Of a stretch of 57,116 nucleotides of DNA, positions 2,785-54,860 are shown one piece after another. Source of the DNA: Rhodospirillales bacterium (GTDB lineage: Bacteria; Pseudomonadota; Alphaproteobacteria; Rhodospirillales; Defluviicoccaceae). A program made the translations under genes and the position numbers. The stretch lies in the NCBI GenBank assembly GCA_007695045.1, contig REEP01000059.1, forward strand, positions 1 to 57,116. The letters are read 5' to 3'. How positions within the stretch are numbered: the stretch's first letter is position 1; every line of letters starts with the position of its first letter. The notes below the pieces were generated by a model that saw only the letters and a list, made by a program, of their open reading frames with translations, did not search any database and was not told the origin of the DNA.

Positions 2785-3393
2785 CTAGCGATCGTCCAGG
2801 TCTGCGGCCAAGGCTGCGCGCACGGCCTCCGGCAGGGCCGCCATGTGATCGTATTTTGCGTGCGTCACCGACAGTACGGCGCGTGTGCCCGGTTGCTTTA
2901 ACGCCTGTCTCTGCTGCGGCGCGAACGGAAACTTGAGGAAATGGACGGAGGACGTCTTGCCCGCTTCGGTGGTCCGTTCCACATCCTCCTCCGGCACGGC
3001 GGCGATCGTGTCCCCGTCGATGGTCAGTGTCACCGCCTCCTCGATTCCGCCAAGCTCGGCCAGTACCCGGGACCGACGTACGGGTTCCTCAATCTCGATC
3101 ATCATGGTGGCGACCAGGTTGCTGCCGTCGGGGATGAGTGGGGCATAGGCGCTCAGTTCATCCTCGATCTGCGCCTCGCCACCCTTCTCGATGCGCAGCA
3201 TCTCGTGGATCTGGTGCCACATCGTGTCGAAGTTCTCGAAATAGAAGGTGACATCCGGCCCGACCGAAAGCCGGCGGTTGCGCTTCAGCGCGGTGACCGC
3301 GGCCCGGCGCTGGTCGCGGACTTTCTCATAGTCGTCCAGTGGCATGATGTCATCGCGGGTGATCTCTCGCTTGCTCACGGCTTGCAGCTCCAT
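2785..3393 (-). CDS. DUF3501 family protein
   Basis: 202 residues from the ATG at 3393. Begins ITRDDIMPLDDYEKVR after a short leader and contains VGPDVTFYFENFDTMWHQ and MLRIEKGG, signatures I recognise from the DUF3501 family. I rejected a longer reading that starts inside the upstream gene. It lies 26 bp after the Fe-S protein gene and is the last member of an irr / rubrerythrin / Fe-S protein / DUF3501 run on the minus strand. The biochemical role is unknown; the context suggests a partner in peroxide or iron-linked electron transfer. Confidence 0.85.
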   Translation of the reverse strand: MELQAVSKREITRDDIMPLDDYEKVRDQRRAAVTALKRNRRLSVGPDVTFYFENFDTMWHQIHEMLRIEKGGEAQIEDELSAYAPLIPDGSNLVATMMIEIEEPVRRSRVLAELGGIEEAVTLTIDGDTIAAVPEEDVERTTEAGKTSSVHFLKFPFAPQQRQALKQPGTRAVLSVTHAKYDHMAALPEAVRAALAADLDDR

Positions 3394-20008: not shown

Positions 20009-20428
20009 ATGGATGGCAAGGGAAGCGTGTCGTTGCCGCATGGGGACCTGGGTGAACGCCTCAGGCGACTGCGGGAGGAAACGACACCGCTGCCTGGGCG
20101 GCGGGCGGATCAGCCGGCCAGCGGTCTTGGCATGGCGTTTGCTTGCGGCGCGCACATGGTTGCGGGTCTGGCGGTGGGCGCCGGCATCGGCTACCTGCTG
20201 GATGGCTGGCTCAGCACGTCGCCGTGGCTGTTCGTGGTGTTTTTCTTTCTGGGCGCCGCCGCCGGTATCCTGAACACCTATCGAACGGCAACCGGCATGG
20301 GGATGGCCCTGGGCTATCGCCCGGCCGAGAAGGGGACAGAAGCGCATCGGCAGGAGGACGAACCGCCCGCCGGTGATCAAGAAACGAAAGACCAAAGGGG
20401 CGGGAACCGCGGTGGCCAATCCGCTTGA
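20009..20428 (+). CDS. atpI: ATP synthase protein I
   Basis: 139 residues from the ATG at 20009. Two membrane helices: GMAFACGAHMVAGLAVGAG and SPWLFVVFFFLGAAAGILN, with GYLLDGWLSTSPW between, the standard AtpI pattern. The N-terminus is charged (DLGERLRRLREE) and the C-terminus is a polar tail. AtpI assists assembly of the c-ring. First gene of the F0 operon; its end overlaps the atpB start by 17 bases. Confidence 0.9.
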   Translation: MDGKGSVSLPHGDLGERLRRLREETTPLPGRRADQPASGLGMAFACGAHMVAGLAVGAGIGYLLDGWLSTSPWLFVVFFFLGAAAGILNTYRTATGMGMALGYRPAEKGTEAHRQEDEPPAGDQETKDQRGGNRGGQSA

Positions 20429-30715: not shown

Positions 30716-31732
30716 TTAGTCCTCCAGCCAGCCCGGCATCACCCGCAAGGTGCCGATGCGCGCGTCCAGGGTGTTGCGGAGCGCGGTCTCGACGAAATGG
30801 ACCAGGCGAACCCGGAGGTCGGCTCCGGGCTGGGCGAAGCGCAGGAGTAGCGCCGCCATGGCGGCATCGGCGGCGCGCCGGGCGCCGTCGTCGATCTTGA
30901 CCGCGATGCCGAGCCCGAGCGCCGGCACCGCGGCCGCGTGCACCCCTTCGGCCCCGGCCTTGACCATAACCGAGCCCGCCGCCGCCTCCATGATCGCGGT
31001 GTCGAACCGGCCGCTGCCGCCCACCAGGAACGGGTGCGCCGTCATCGCTGCCACCACCCGCCGCGCCGCCAGCGCGCGCAGCCGGCCCAGTGGCGCCGGC
31101 GCCGCCAGCAGTGCCAGGGCGCGGGCAAGCGCCTGCAGCGGCATCGCCAGGGTGGGCACGCCGCAGCCGTCCGCCGCCACATGCGTGTCGTTGAGGTCGC
31201 AGCCACCCAGGTGGGCAAGGGTTCGGCGCACGCGCAGTTGCACCGGGTGCACCGGCCCGGCGTAGCCCGTGGTGGGCTCGCGCAGGTGCAGGGCGGTGGC
31301 GAGGAAGCCGGTGTGCTTGCCGGAGCAGTTGTTGTGGAGCCGCGACGGCGACTCGCCCCGGCTGATCAGGTCGTGGGCGGCGGCCTCCGCCAGCGGCGGA
31401 TGCGGGCCGCACACCAGCGCCGATTCGCTGAGCCCCAGGCGGTCCAGCCACTGCGCGACCCGGCTCACGTGCTCAGGCTCCCCGGCGTGGGAGGCGCAGG
31501 CCAGGGCGAGTTCCGCTTCCGTCACGGCGAATCGGTCGGCCGCACCGGTCTCCAGCAGCGGCAATACCTGCAACGGCTTGACCGCCGACCGCGGAAAGAT
31601 CGGCGTTTCCACGTCGCCGCGGGCAAACACCAGGGCGCCGGCCGCATCGACCACCGCCGCGGCACCGCGATGCGCGCTTTCAACCCGGTCGCCGCGGGTC
31701 ACCGCCACCAGAACCGGGTTCGCCTCCGCCAT
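30716..31732 (-). CDS. L-asparaginase, Rhizobium type II (COG4448)
   Basis: 338 residues from the ATG at 31732. Hallmarks: FPRSAVKPLQVLPLLETGA, LACASHAGEPEHV, LHNNCSGKHTGFLATALHL and DGCGVPTLAMPL, all typical of the thermolabile/inducible asparaginase family of Rhizobium etli, unrelated to E. coli AnsA/AnsB. The SGKH segment holds the proposed catalytic residues. The gene ends 7 bp past the SpoU gene on the opposite strand (convergent). Hydrolyses asparagine to aspartate and ammonia. Confidence 0.92.
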   Translation of the reverse strand: MAEANPVLVAVTRGDRVESAHRGAAAVVDAAGALVFARGDVETPIFPRSAVKPLQVLPLLETGAADRFAVTEAELALACASHAGEPEHVSRVAQWLDRLGLSESALVCGPHPPLAEAAAHDLISRGESPSRLHNNCSGKHTGFLATALHLREPTTGYAGPVHPVQLRVRRTLAHLGGCDLNDTHVAADGCGVPTLAMPLQALARALALLAAPAPLGRLRALAARRVVAAMTAHPFLVGGSGRFDTAIMEAAAGSVMVKAGAEGVHAAAVPALGLGIAVKIDDGARRAADAAMAALLLRFAQPGADLRVRLVHFVETALRNTLDARIGTLRVMPGWLED

Positions 31733-31845
31733 CTCGTCGCCCCCTGTTGCCAAGACCGCGGCTTGTCTGCCATGGTCCCGCACGGTTGGCAACGGCGGCC
31801 CGGGGCCGGCGTTGCCGTGCGTCAACTGATGACCTCCGGGTGACC

Positions 31846-49733: not shown

Positions 49734-50117
49734 CTAGCGCCGCAGCATCAACGTCTCGGCCACCAGAACGGTGACCGAGACCACATTGGCGACCAGAGCG
49801 CCGGAGGCCAAGGATACGATATCCACCATGGTGTCCGGGGTCATGCCGACATCCGTGACGTGGACGGCCCAGGTCCAGATCACCGCCGCAACCACCAGCT
49901 GCAGGACCGCCACCAGGCTGGTGGCGAGCAGAAGCGCGCCGATCTGGCTGCGGTCGCCGAGCTTGAGGATGGTGGCGATGATGTTGACGACCACGACAAA
50001 GAAGAATTCGGCAACCGGATGGTGCGCGGGGTTGTCGATGTCGCCGATCACGAAGCCGACGTTGAGGGTCAAGGCCAGGATCAGGAAAAATCCAAAGGCC
50101 ACCTTTTCCAGGTTCAT
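49734..50117 (-). CDS. small membrane protein, DUF6394-like
   Basis: 127 residues from the ATG at 50117 (GGGAGG upstream). Starts NLEKVAFGFFLILALTLNVG and contains IGDIDNPAHHPVAEFFFVVV and LKLGDRSQIGALLLATSLVA; four membrane helices. I recall the same pattern from the DUF6394 family, but only from memory. It lies 23 bp upstream of the potassium channel gene on the same strand, and the two are often adjacent in my recollection, so a channel-accessory role is possible. Confidence 0.65.
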   Translation of the reverse strand: MNLEKVAFGFFLILALTLNVGFVIGDIDNPAHHPVAEFFFVVVVNIIATILKLGDRSQIGALLLATSLVAVLQLVVAAVIWTWAVHVTDVGMTPDTMVDIVSLASGALVANVVSVTVLVAETLMLRR

Positions 50118-50328
50118 GAACCGCTGCCTCCCGCCGCCGACGCCGTCGACAATGGCCGGTCGTTGCATGCCGGCACCGTTACCAGCCTATCATCGGCGCG
50201 GACAGGCCGCGGTTCAACCCGGCAGCGATGGCCCGGCCGCGATGGCGGGGTGCGCGCCGCCGCTCCTCGCGCCTGCACCGCCCAAGGGATGGTGGCAAGA
50301 GCGCCGGCGATATCCCCAACATATGGTA

Positions 50329-50347
50329 GCGTAAAAAATTCTGACAC
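50329..50347. promoter_or_regulatory. palindromic regulator-binding site 1 (or inverted-repeat end)
   Basis: GCGTAAAAAATTCTGACAC; its reverse complement matches site 2 at 17 of 19 positions. The left arm is degenerate. Could be a second activator site, or the left end of a 300-bp inverted-repeat element. Confidence 0.5.
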
Positions 50348-50628
50348 CGTGCCAAAGCGGCGGAGGTGCCGTCCAGGGCTGGCGGTGTCTTGTTTTTTGT
50401 CTTCTAAATCAGAAGGTTGGACGGCAGGTGCGGCGACGTTGCGACTTGGCCACCGACTTGGCAGCAGGGCGACGGTTGCACAGGTGTAAAGAATCCCGAC
50501 AGTGGATTTTGGCGGCTCTGCCCTCGGCACGGCCGCAGAGCCCCTCGATAACCCTCTGAAATGATTATCTTTTTGTCTGAACCAGAAGGGGTGCCCCCGT
50601 TATGGGGGGTATGAGGTCACAAAATCAG

Positions 50629-50647
50629 GTGTCAGAATTTTTGACAC
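50629..50647. promoter_or_regulatory. palindromic upstream activator site 2
   Basis: GTGTCAGAATTTTTGACAC, a perfect 6-bp dyad (GTGTCA / TGACAC) with 7-bp spacer, 51 bp upstream of the sigma54 -24 element. PEP-CTERM genes in exosortase bacteria are often controlled by a PrsR-type sigma54 activator; this is a good candidate for its site. Confidence 0.6.
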
Positions 50648-50698
50648 TCGCCCTTAGCCGACGTTGCTAACCCATTGAAAAATAGAGTGCCGACGATC

Positions 50699-50713
50699 TG
50701 GCATCACACTTGC
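50699..50713 (+). promoter_or_regulatory. sigma54 -24/-12 promoter of the PEP-CTERM gene
   Basis: TGGCATCACACTTGC matches TGGCAC-N5-TTGC at all invariant positions (GG and GC ten bases apart; only the C6 position is T). Transcription would start near 50725, 38 bp before the gene. Confidence 0.75.
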
Positions 50714-50762
50714 TTTCCTGACAAGCCTAGATTGGACACTCCAGACCCAGAGATCGCATATC

Positions 50763-51497
50763 ATGGTCGTTCGCCCCGTCGTCCTCGCCCTCGCCACCGC
50801 TATCGCCGTATTGACCGCGGCCTCAACGGCACGCGCCGACGTGATCGAGTTCTTCACCGACCGCGCCAGCTTTGACGCGGCGGCCGGCACCGCCCTCAAC
50901 CGGGAGAGCTTCGAGGATTCGTTCACAGCGGCATCCACGGTCGCCTTTGGCGATTTCACGCTGAGCGAGGAAGGTGACTCCACCAACTTGGTCGGTCAAC
51001 TCAATCAAACTTTTGCCGACCTTCTAGACGTCGGCAGCGCGATCACCGAGGGCAGCTTCGCAGCTTTTTATGCTGGCCTCATCGACAATGCATCTGGCGT
51101 CTTCGATTTTTCCATCAAGTCGCCGATCAGCGCATTCGGCGTCGACATCACTGTGGGCCCGAACCTGGATCCAGACTTTGATCCTGGCAAGTTTACCGAT
51201 GAAATCATCGTGATTTCGTTCGATATCTTTCTGGGCGACGAAAACCTCGGGGGATTTTCGCAATTTTCCTCCGTGAACGGCCCCATTTTCTTGGGCGCGA
51301 TCGCCTCCGACGGTCTGTTCGACCGCGTGACGGTGGGGGCAGGGCCTCGCGTCGTCGCGTTCGACGACGCCGCCTTCGGCACCGCCGCCGATCCTGTCGC
51401 CGTGCCCGAGCCGACGGTGCTCGCAACCCTGAGCCTGGGTCTGTTGGCGGCCGCCGGGGCCATGGCCATCCAGCGGCGGCGTCGGGTCCATTGCTGA
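50763..51497 (+). CDS. PEP-CTERM-anchored exported protein
   Basis: 244 residues. Signal peptide about 1-25 (VLALATAIAVLTAASTARA). The mature region is Asp/Phe-rich and has no Cys, like many exosortase cargo proteins. The C-terminus carries VAVPEP, a hydrophobic helix and a basic RRRR cluster ending near the last residue: the PEP-CTERM sorting signal recognised by exosortase (EpsH/Xrt). The protein should be processed and attached or secreted at the outer surface. The gene sits behind a sigma54 promoter. Specific function unknown. Confidence 0.88.
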   Translation: MVVRPVVLALATAIAVLTAASTARADVIEFFTDRASFDAAAGTALNRESFEDSFTAASTVAFGDFTLSEEGDSTNLVGQLNQTFADLLDVGSAITEGSFAAFYAGLIDNASGVFDFSIKSPISAFGVDITVGPNLDPDFDPGKFTDEIIVISFDIFLGDENLGGFSQFSSVNGPIFLGAIASDGLFDRVTVGAGPRVVAFDDAAFGTAADPVAVPEPTVLATLSLGLLAAAGAMAIQRRRRVHC

Positions 51498-51777: not shown

Positions 51778-52527
51778 GTGGACCCGTTGTTGCGTTTCGG
51801 GGATGACGGACCGCACGTTTTGGAACTGACCCGGCTGCTGACCGAACGCGGCCATCTCGACCAGGCCGGGCCCCGCTTCGACCGGGTGGTCCGGCGCGCG
51901 GTCAAGGAGTTTCAGGCCCGCCATGTGGATTCCCGGGGCCGGCCGCTGGCGGTTGATGGCTTGGTCGGGCCTCTGACTTGGTGGGCCCTGCGCCACCCGG
52001 ACAACACGGCCCTTCTCGGCACGTCAGAGGCGGTGGAAACGACGCTGCCTGAGGGCGGTTCGGCCGCCGGGCGCGCCGCCCTGCGCGCGGCCATCGCGGA
52101 GATGCAGGCCGGCGCGCGCGAAGTGGGCGCCAACAACGACGGCCCCTTTGTCGACAAGTATCTCAACGGAATCGTGCCCGCGCCCGCCAACTGGTGCGCC
52201 GGATTCACCAGCTGGTGTTACACCCATGCGCCGGGCGGCCTGCCGTTCCGCTACAGCCTGGGTGCGCGGGATATCCGCGACCAGTTCCGTCGACAGGGTT
52301 GGACCTATGACGTCGGCGAACGGCTGCCGGAGCCGGGCGATATCATCGTCTGGTGGCGGGATCAGCCGGACAGCTGGAAAGGCCACATCGGCCTCGTGCA
52401 CCATCATGCCGACGGCATCGTCTATACCGTTGAGGGCAACAAGGGCGGCTTTCCCGCGCCGGTCCGGCGCTTCGACTACGTGTTGTCACGGATCGATCGG
52501 CTGCTGGGCTTCGGCCGGGTACCGTGA
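51778..52527 (+). CDS. peptidoglycan-binding plus CHAP-domain protein
   Basis: 249 residues from the GTG at 51778 (GGGGAGG upstream). Residues ~7-75 are a PG_binding_1 domain: FGDDGPHVLELTRLLTERG and FDRVVRRAVKEFQARH, then VDGLVGPLTWWAL. A CHAP amidase domain follows: WCAGFTSWCYTHAP with C141, GDIIVWWRDQPDSW, and H204 in GHIGLVHHHADG. No signal peptide, so either it is exported by another route or the start is further upstream. Probably cleaves peptidoglycan cross-links. Confidence 0.85.
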   Translation: MDPLLRFGDDGPHVLELTRLLTERGHLDQAGPRFDRVVRRAVKEFQARHVDSRGRPLAVDGLVGPLTWWALRHPDNTALLGTSEAVETTLPEGGSAAGRAALRAAIAEMQAGAREVGANNDGPFVDKYLNGIVPAPANWCAGFTSWCYTHAPGGLPFRYSLGARDIRDQFRRQGWTYDVGERLPEPGDIIVWWRDQPDSWKGHIGLVHHHADGIVYTVEGNKGGFPAPVRRFDYVLSRIDRLLGFGRVP

Positions 52528-53661: not shown

Positions 53662-53846
53662 ATCCGGCATTGACACGATGTACTAGGCACTCCAGCGGCG
53701 ACGCGCAAGGTCCGGCACCGCCGCCGGCCATCGCTGCGGACCCGGATGTTCGGACAGGGTTGCGGGGCGGCACCCGGCTGCGCTAGGTTGCGCGCTTCCG
53801 ATGCGTCGCCGGCCCCGTTCGCGGGCACGGCCACCCGCCGGACATG

Positions 53847-53922
53847 GCGCCCGTAGCTCAATGGATAGAGCGTCTGACTACGGATCAGGAGGTTAGGGGT
53901 TCGAGTCCTCTCGGGCGCGCCA
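53847..53922 (+). tRNA. tRNA-Arg (anticodon ACG)
   Basis: 76 nt with encoded CCA (53920-53922). Acceptor GCGCCCG pairs with CGGGCGC; anticodon stem TCTGA/TCAGG encloses CTACGGA with ACG (A34 is normally read as inosine); T arm GGTTCGAGTCC. A common integration site for islands; no second copy of its 3' end was found in the window. Confidence 0.97.
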
Positions 53923-54230
53923 ATGATTTCAAGGGCTTAGAGGCCTTCGGGGTGAGAACAAAACGGACCGTCGGTTTTTCCGTCCGGGGGGTGTTTGTGT
54001 CGGAGGAGTCGGTCACGTCCGCAGGGCGATCTGCCGTTGTGATGCGGTGGCAGGAACCGTTGATTTTTTCGCGCCACGCGGGAGGCGGCGACGGCTGCAA
54101 CGGCGGGGCGACGGCCCCAAGGGTGCCGAGGCCGGCACTGCCCCACGCCGGTGCGCTTCTGCCGGTGCGCTTCTTATTGACCGCGCGGCCGGCATTGCGT
54201 ATATCCTCGTATACACAAAGGAGGGGCGCT
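53923..54230. other. 308-bp region between tRNA-Arg and vapB
   Basis: No accepted ORF. Its right end holds the vapBC promoter and operator palindrome. Apparent ORFs that read into the tRNA (ending RPRGLEPLTS) are tRNA artefacts. Confidence 0.5.
54199..54214. promoter_or_regulatory. likely VapB operator palindrome
   Basis: GTATA-TCCTCG-TATAC, an inverted repeat just upstream of the vapB ribosome site (AAAGGAGG at 54217-54224). VapB-type antitoxins repress their own operon through such short palindromes. Confidence 0.5.
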
Positions 54231-54470
54231 GTGTCCATTCATCGAGGGCGTCTGTTCCGCAGCGGCAATAGCCAAGCCGTCCGATTGCCGAAGGAGATCG
54301 CTTTCGAGGGTGATGGCGACGTGCTGATTGCGCGCTCCGGCGATGTGGTCACCATCTACCGGGCAACAACAAGCCTCCAGGAAATGGCGGACGCGCTCCT
54401 TGCGCGCGCGCCTGTGCCCGAGATCGAGCGCCGGGAGGCGGACGAGCCGACGGACCGGTCGGGCCTCTAG
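54231..54470 (+). CDS. vapB: VapB-type antitoxin (AbrB/SpoVT fold)
   Basis: 79 residues from a GTG at 54231, placed by AGGAGG six bases upstream. HRGRLFRSGNSQAVRLPKEI is the swapped-hairpin AbrB/VapB DNA-binding domain. The C-terminal part (ALLARAPVPEIERREADEP) would wrap the toxin. It lies 3 bp before vapC and beside a palindromic operator. Confidence 0.88.
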   Translation: MSIHRGRLFRSGNSQAVRLPKEIAFEGDGDVLIARSGDVVTIYRATTSLQEMADALLARAPVPEIERREADEPTDRSGL

Positions 54471-54473
54471 TCC

Positions 54474-54860
54474 TTGGCATACATGCTGGACACCAATGTC
54501 GCCATCCATCTGCGCGATGCCGATGCCGTCGTCGTCAAACGGGTCCGGGACCTCGATGACGCCGTCGTCATGTCCGTCGTGACGCGCGTGGAACTTGAAG
54601 GGGGTGTCTATCGCGACCCACGCTACGCGGTCGCCCGGCGCGAGCGGTTGGACATCGTCCTCCGCGCCATCCCGACACTCGCCTTCGACGACGAGGCGGC
54701 GACGATCTACGGAGCGATCGTGGCCGGCGCCGGGTATGCGCGCCGAAAGCTGTTGGATCGGATGATCGCAGCACAGGCGGTCCTGCATCGGGTCACTTTG
54801 GTGACGTTCAATGCCGGCGATTTCAGGGGCGTCCCCGGGTTGAAGCTCCTCGTCTGGTAG
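54474..54860 (+). CDS. vapC: VapC-type PIN-domain ribonuclease toxin
   Basis: 128 residues from a TTG at 54474 (an ATG at 54483 is possible). PIN active site residues D6 (YMLDTNVAIH), E40 (TRVELEGG), D95 (LLDRMIAAQA) and D116 (TFNAGDF) are all present, so it should be active. Cleaves tRNA or rRNA when free of VapB. Convergent with pyruvate kinase. Confidence 0.9.
   Translation: MAYMLDTNVAIHLRDADAVVVKRVRDLDDAVVMSVVTRVELEGGVYRDPRYAVARRERLDIVLRAIPTLAFDDEAATIYGAIVAGAGYARRKLLDRMIAAQAVLHRVTLVTFNAGDFRGVPGLKLLVW

Follow-up and report, generated by a model that had tools for sequence, protein, structure and literature searches.

A predicted PrsR-activated, sigma54-type promoter with three palindromic sites and IHF-like boxes upstream of a PEP-CTERM gene in a Rhodospirillales bacterium

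A class of promoters preceding PEP-CTERM genes was described by Haft et al. in 2006 (PMC1569441). As set out there, motif 1, a sometimes repeated 17-nt motif ending in TTTACA, is followed by a spacer of 32 to 92 nt and then by a sigma54 motif, an arrangement reported before 99 of 167 proteobacterial PEP-CTERM genes and tied to the regulator PrsR and the kinase PrsK. Related findings come from other organisms: the Aquincola PEP-CTERM gene pepA has a mapped start and is RpoN1-dependent (PMC9850573), and DVUA0057, a PrsR-type regulator of Desulfovibrio vulgaris, bound five predicted PEP-CTERM targets in DAP-chip (PMC3333781; also PMC4641369). For activators of the NtrC type, which are reported to work as hexamers, a review calls the influence of enhancer-site binding on AAA+ activator activity unknown so far (PMC7175178). 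At norVW, the three enhancer sites of NorR are described as essential and as a scaffold for the AAA+ hexamer (PMC2941729). Finally, at many sigma54 promoters IHF is said to bind between activator site and promoter and to aid looping (PMC7175178 and PMC7057263).

The DNA studied here (57,116 nt, hereafter the window) contains a promoter region much like those of the 2006 class, with a 17-nt motif 1, a 52-nt spacer within the range given there, a sigma54 element, a long upstream region and a PEP-CTERM gene, in a genome encoding PrsR and PrsK. It departs from that description, as far as its available text goes, in three respects: three sites are the rule in the genus, the proximal site is an 18-nt variant at some promoters, and IHF-like boxes occupy fixed places. 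The three-site, IHF-spaced layout would thus be a variation on a promoter class that is itself already published. What it predicts in common with pepA and DVUA0057 is RpoN dependence and a PrsR-type regulator, respectively. The features are listed in Table 1.

Table 1. Positions of predicted elements around the PEP-CTERM gene, with the copied promoter stretch found elsewhere in the genome
Feature	Position	Strand	Score or basis
Distal motif-1 palindrome CGTAAAAAATTCTGACA, predicted PrsR site; right half better	50330-50346	.	21.5 (window-left-out model), 20.1 (eight-other-genomes model)
IHF-like box AATCAGAAGGTTG, gap 1	50407-50419	+	consensus match, zero mismatches to WATCARNNNNTTR
Middle motif-1 palindrome TGTAAAGAATCCCGACA, predicted PrsR site	50485-50501	.	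23.0 (window-left-out model), 20.2 (eight-other-genomes model)
IHF-like box TTTCAGAGGGTTA, gap 2	50549-50561	-	consensus match, one mismatch
Proximal motif-1 palindrome TGTCAGAATTTTTGACA, predicted PrsR site	50630-50646	.	25.4 (window-left-out model), 23.3 (eight-other-genomes model)
IHF-like box TTTCAATGGGTTA, gap 3, starting 31 nt before the -24 element	50668-50680	-	consensus match, one mismatch; same place in other promoters
Sigma54-like -24/-12 element TGGCATCACACTTGCT	50699-50714	+	read directly; 7/7 scored positions
Expected transcription start	50724-50725	+	predicted from the typical spacing to the -12 element
PEP-CTERM gene of 244 aa with a signal peptide-like start and the tail VPEPTVLATLSLGLLAAAGAMAIQRRRR	50763-51497	+	TIGR02595 borderline
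371-nt exact repeat	L062 (G000:C83), 31407-31777; second copy 1551 nt further along		before two PEP-CTERM genes

The intergenic region extends from 50169 to 50762, the gene on its other side being a divergent neighbour with a DUF6394 domain. The near-perfect -24/-12 element claimed in a preliminary description of this DNA is there to be read directly (TGGCATCACACTTGC, 50699-50713). When GG and GC were required, only two full 7/7 matches to the sigma54 pattern were found on both strands of the 57 kb, this one and TGGCATGGCGTTTGCT at 20128 (+). Also as claimed, a dyad (GTGTCAGAATTTTTGACAC, 50629-50647) lies 51 nt upstream of TGGCATCACACTTGC, which leaves 52 nt between the end of the 17-nt palindrome that it contains and the -24 element. 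Exactly 300 nt further upstream, at 50329-50347, the same dyad recurs with one half degenerate (GCGTAAAAAATTCTGACAC). This second copy had been announced too, but the picture was incomplete: a third copy, TGTAAAGAATCCCGACA, overlooked at first, lies between the two outer ones, and the array therefore has steps of 155 and 145 nt instead of being a pair 300 nt apart. The 3.35-Mb genome contains two exact copies of the 14-mer GTGTCAGAATTTTT, both in this intergenic region, and three further places that match it with one mismatch.

The sites were scored with two models. The window-left-out model, 17 nt wide and palindromic, was trained on the regions preceding 100 PEP-CTERM genes or candidates in ten genomes, excluding the window. 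At a threshold of 12 it finds 100 sites in these regions, which are its own training regions, versus a mean of 2.1 and a maximum of 6 in first-order Markov shuffles. The eight-other-genomes model was seeded only with the TGTAAA/TTTACA palindrome and covers 78 PEP-CTERM genes, 57 of which contribute its 123 sites. With the latter model the three sites of Table 1 are the three best in the whole window, the next one scoring 16.3 at 3225. In 2,000 dinucleotide shuffles of the intergenic region, the best score never exceeded 17.0 and the third best never exceeded 9.0, versus 23.8, 20.9 and 20.5 observed with a near-identical model. Since the three sites take the top ranks in the window and the shuffle maxima are far lower, their presence is beyond chance.

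Two readings that would split up the array or give it another origin deserve mention here. The outer dyads form 21-nt inverted arms that are 90% complementary, as might the two ends of a small mobile element that had inserted upstream of the gene. We give this next to no credence, because the third copy sits inside and the motif recurs as a part of promoters. Moreover, the genome contains no second copy of such an element; the whole region matches only stretches of 22 to 39 nt in 4 other genomes of 100 and stretches of 32 to 35 nt twice in its own genome; there was no plasmid match, and no target duplication was apparent by eye. Alternatively, the distal site, which is 162 nt upstream of the start of the DUF6394 gene (49737-50168, minus strand), might serve that gene and leave the other two to the PEP-CTERM gene; this neighbour is retained in the sister species, where the DNA alignment extends into it. 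Such a division of labour is nevertheless very improbable, as there is no minus-strand sigma54-like element between the distal site and the DUF6394 gene, the sole candidate with at least 4 of 7 positions (50371) being upstream of the site, and three sites are present in other arrays as well. An RNA element was also considered and rejected, a scan of 50100-51000 against Rfam with E values up to 1 having returned one match at chance level.

The components predicted to act on this promoter are encoded in the genome; for prsR, prsK and exosortase genes, the preliminary description had suggested such a check. PrsR is present (TIGR02915, 641 bits; cut-off, 502.6), which is the case in 10 of the 100 genomes searched, this one included, and so is PrsK (TIGR02916, 624 bits; cut-off, 300). 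The translation of PrsR, an NtrC-type regulator, contains the GAFTGA motif. RpoN is encoded, as are both subunits of IHF, alpha (TIGR00987, 135.0; cut-off, 120.25) and beta (TIGR00988, 140.7; cut-off, 119.95). Two matches to PF09721 identify two exosortases, one of which is XrtA (320.5 bits for a cut-off of 208). The XrtA locus also holds the deacetylase, FemAB, amidotransferase and chain-length proteins of the XrtA system, and PrsK is encoded on the same stretch as an XrtA-system ATPase and a glycosyltransferase of the EpsB2 type. Among the ten genomes with PrsR, one (G086) had no exosortase match in the PF09721 search. Autoregulation was considered for XrtA, PrsK and PrsR and rejected: the stretches carrying them (L216, L217 and L051, respectively) have no strong motif-1 site, the best score with the eight-other-genomes model being 13.4.

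The PEP-CTERM gene itself is borderline for TIGR02595, with 15.2 bits alone, 16.6 with its in-frame neighbours and 14.9 in another search, the cut-off being 16. Its ortholog in the sister species (G001:C93), which is 65.9% identical over 217 aa, scores 22.2. In the window's own genome, 14 PEP-CTERM genes exceed the cut-off, the window's gene doing so only with its in-frame neighbours. A genome-wide search with the pattern TGTMRRNAWTNYYKACA found 16 mismatch-free places, every one of them upstream of a PEP-CTERM gene, which bears out the expectation that the dyad would recur near other genes of this type and supports the original reading that the PEP-CTERM gene follows a sigma54-like element and a PrsR-type dyad. 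With one mismatch allowed, there were 15 more places, versus one for the pattern read backwards; 7 of them are in the same arrays. The 8 located elsewhere fall within frames that run for 150 codons or more without a stop, although frames of this kind do not prove coding in a GC-rich genome. These 8 places score between 10.5 and 19.7, and we take them, with some reserve for the highest, as chance matches. One of these stop-free frames is long and contains a motif-1-like site of 19.7, which is like the distal site of the window, and no PEP-CTERM gene was found nearby (L209; G000:C63:135627-135643). An earlier, narrower pattern had given 23 strand matches in this genome versus 2 in a control; it also matched in many relatives, often no more frequently than the control did. 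In a collection of genome contigs, the exact 19-mer was found on 3 stretches, which is about the number we estimate for chance. One of them, in an alphaproteobacterial metagenome-assembled genome (L015, 3584-3602), precedes a gene for a protein that, on inspection by eye, has a PEP-CTERM-like tail; the remaining two apparently do not precede such a gene, as judged for L013 from flanking DNA alone.

On this evidence, as far as sequence can settle it, the window's gene is a member of the PrsR regulon in an exosortase A system, and control of its promoter by PrsR and sigma54 is very probable. PrsR binding here is a prediction from sequence, and the distal and proximal sites are inverted relative to each other and could loop; the palindromes might therefore bind another regulator or be operators of a repressor loop, with PrsR not being the main factor. 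This is improbable, because sigma54 promoters need an activator and the mismatch-free motif is restricted to PEP-CTERM genes in a genome with both PrsR and PrsK. The motif and its spacing to the sigma54 element are also those of the PrsR class, as far as the published account of it goes.

Motif-1 sites tied to a sigma54-like element precede 10 of the 14 PEP-CTERM genes above the cut-off and 1 of 3 weaker candidates. The remaining 4 of the 14, C115b (L055), C28 (L057), C130 (L058) and C45 (L063), have no motif 1 upstream; PEP-CTERM genes of this kind perhaps are under other control or belong to another class of exosortase substrates. We then looked at the number of sites per promoter. Exactly three sites, with widths of 16 to 19 nt and one threshold, are present in 12 of the 15 arrays of this genome and its sister species (G001), first-order Markov sequences serving as the null. 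The exceptions are C69, with three sites and a weak fourth; C130w, with two and a weak third suggested by eye; and G001:C2, with no linked array at this threshold and three sites at a lower one, the last scoring 10.1. In both species, three sites per promoter are thus the rule. The preliminary remark that dual palindromes at such a distance are unusual did not hold: this array consists of three sites, repetition of the motif was noted in 2006, and three-site arrays are usual in this genome, one of which (C115a) extends over 385 bp between its outermost sites. Likewise, the proposal of either two binding sites or a looped array under PrsR-like control was right about the type of dyad but not about the number of sites.

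The layouts of the arrays are of several kinds, with nearly even steps of 108 to 116 nt, with a pair 20 to 21 nt apart followed by a step of 112 to 148 nt, or with long steps of 145 to 216 nt. Evenly spaced promoters combine upstream sites of 17 nt with a proximal site of a variant form, 18 nt wide and in most cases TGTAAAG-N4-CTTTACA. This variant, which perhaps differs in affinity or geometry, is found in the G000 arrays C72, C125, C73, C131, C69 and C83 (L052, L054, L056, L060, L061 and L062).

A rival account of these arrays would be an ordinary PrsR promoter that depends on the proximal site alone. The other two sites would then contribute affinity or be left over from promoter copying, and IHF would work in gap 3 only, as it does in many sigma54 promoters. 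The eight other genomes with PrsR speak for it. In these, a linked site (17 or 18 nt wide, and counted only for genes with a sigma54-like element downstream of a site, as in all our linked-promoter counts) precedes 39 of 78 PEP-CTERM genes, with one site in 24 promoters, two in 14 and three in 1. Since relatives make do with one or two sites, three are not a general need. Spare sites could moreover have been carried along by segment copying between genes, for which examples are given below. Against this account, the ortholog retains three sites (steps of 179 and 145 nt), the middle one again 145 nt upstream of the proximal one, despite strongly diverged surroundings; its -24 element is degenerate, with TAGC for TGGC. 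In addition, most proximal sites have scores no higher than those of this genome's middle and distal sites. Together with the distribution of IHF-like boxes, to which we now turn, this makes the account rather unlikely, although it is the most serious of the alternatives. That all three sites function is, in our judgment, probable.

A match to the IHF consensus, which we take to be WATCARNNNNTTR, is present in each gap of the window's array. The same is true of most gaps overall: among 38 gaps of 14 arrays (leaving out C83b), 31 contain a match of at most one mismatch, which in 9 is perfect, and 7 contain none; when C131 and C69 are left out as well, 25 of 32 gaps keep theirs. Exact dinucleotide shuffles of the 38 gaps gave a mean of 2.6 and a maximum of 6, and control patterns gave 1 (consensus backwards), 1 (complemented) and 4, 3 and 8 (three scrambles). 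The enrichment extends to the upstream gaps, with 9 of 11 for gap 1 and 10 of 15 for gap 2 versus maxima of 3 and 4 in first-order Markov shuffles, which is not what a role for IHF in gap 3 only would lead one to expect. By comparison, the best matches in the 400-nt regions upstream of six PEP-CTERM genes that lack motif 1 have 2, 2, 2, 2, 1 and 3 mismatches. In the eight other genomes, an IHF match is found in 19 of the 39 proximal gaps and in 11 of the 14 gaps that come next, with maxima of 11 and 8 in shuffles of the same first-order kind.

The box nearest to the promoter has a preferred place. We aligned 43 promoters, relatives included, on their -24 element (site widths of 17 to 18 nt; duplicates C83b and G035:14 dropped). 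In 21 of the 43 (29 if up to two mismatches are allowed instead of one), a box in minus orientation starts 31 or 32 nt upstream of this element, versus 0 or 1 promoters at the remaining minus-strand offsets and 2 at the highest in plus orientation. The AA and TTGA of the consensus are conserved and its free positions little so, in an alignment for which the match itself picked between the two offsets. These boxes, between the sites and at a fixed place before the -24 element, are absent from the published description in so far as its accessible portion allows a comparison; neither "IHF" nor "integration host" occurs in the text of PMC1569441, and no paper on IHF at such PEP-CTERM promoters was found among titles and opening lines of abstracts. 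The box in gap 3 is where IHF-assisted sigma54 promoters, as described, have theirs, between activator site and promoter; the boxes between successive activator sites set the present arrays apart. It is fairly likely that IHF acts in the array.

Some of these promoters are copies of one another. C83a and C83b have an exact stretch of 371 nt in common that holds the whole PrsR array, C131 matches both over 139 nt at 94%, and the promoters of C125 and C69 are 69% identical over 319 nt. The proteins encoded by C83a and C83b have no similarity at 1e-5 outside the trimmed tail, and the only similar pair at this cut-off among the genome's own PEP-CTERM proteins is C130w and C69 (28%). Because the promoter stretches are alike and the proteins are not, the cassette seems to have been copied apart from the coding part; the 371-nt repeat may reflect copying of a promoter cassette or be an effect of assembly. 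Since the promoters are partly copies of one another, the arrays are not independent.

From the sites, the boxes and the genes described above, we infer a working for the promoter. PrsR dimers would bind the three palindromes starting at 50330, 50485 and 50630, and IHF would bend the DNA in each gap, at the boxes starting at 50407, 50549 and 50668, gathering the dimers beside the -24/-12 element. The six subunits of the AAA+ ring, which opens the sigma54-RNA polymerase complex, might then come from these three dimers. This last step is modelled on norVW, where, as described, three activator sites are likewise upstream of a sigma54 promoter, the sites here being predicted from sequence. The two systems differ in that NorR has a GAF sensor and PrsR a receiver, and in that the NorR sites are together on one 266-bp fragment, whereas those here are, in the longest layouts, separated by 145 to 216 nt that hold IHF-like boxes; "ihf" occurs nowhere in the text of PMC2941729. 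That three dimers form a single ring has, in our view, slightly less than an even chance. We favour, with moderate confidence, the reading of the region as a PrsR-activated, sigma54-dependent three-site enhancer with IHF-folded gaps before the PEP-CTERM gene. More tentatively, the PrsR promoters of the genus in general may be modular folded enhancers with positioned IHF bends and a ring assembled from three dimers, the whole cassette being copied before unrelated PEP-CTERM genes. If so, cassette copying would wire new surface proteins into one regulon. The promoter class described in 2006 from two motifs gains an IHF-like box at a fixed place, and some 15 natural three-site promoters of differing layout, compared with relatives that have one or two sites, would make the link between number of sites, IHF bending and ring assembly directly testable.

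The next gene downstream (51778-52527, +) has peptidoglycan-binding and CHAP domains and likely encodes a cell-wall amidase. At 53844-54470 (+), an open frame of 208 aa starts over a tRNA-Arg gene (53847-53922), so that its beginning, at the least, is not genuine protein-coding sequence. At 54474-54860 (+), a PIN-domain protein follows a short frame that is antitoxin-like by eye, likely as a VapBC-type pair.
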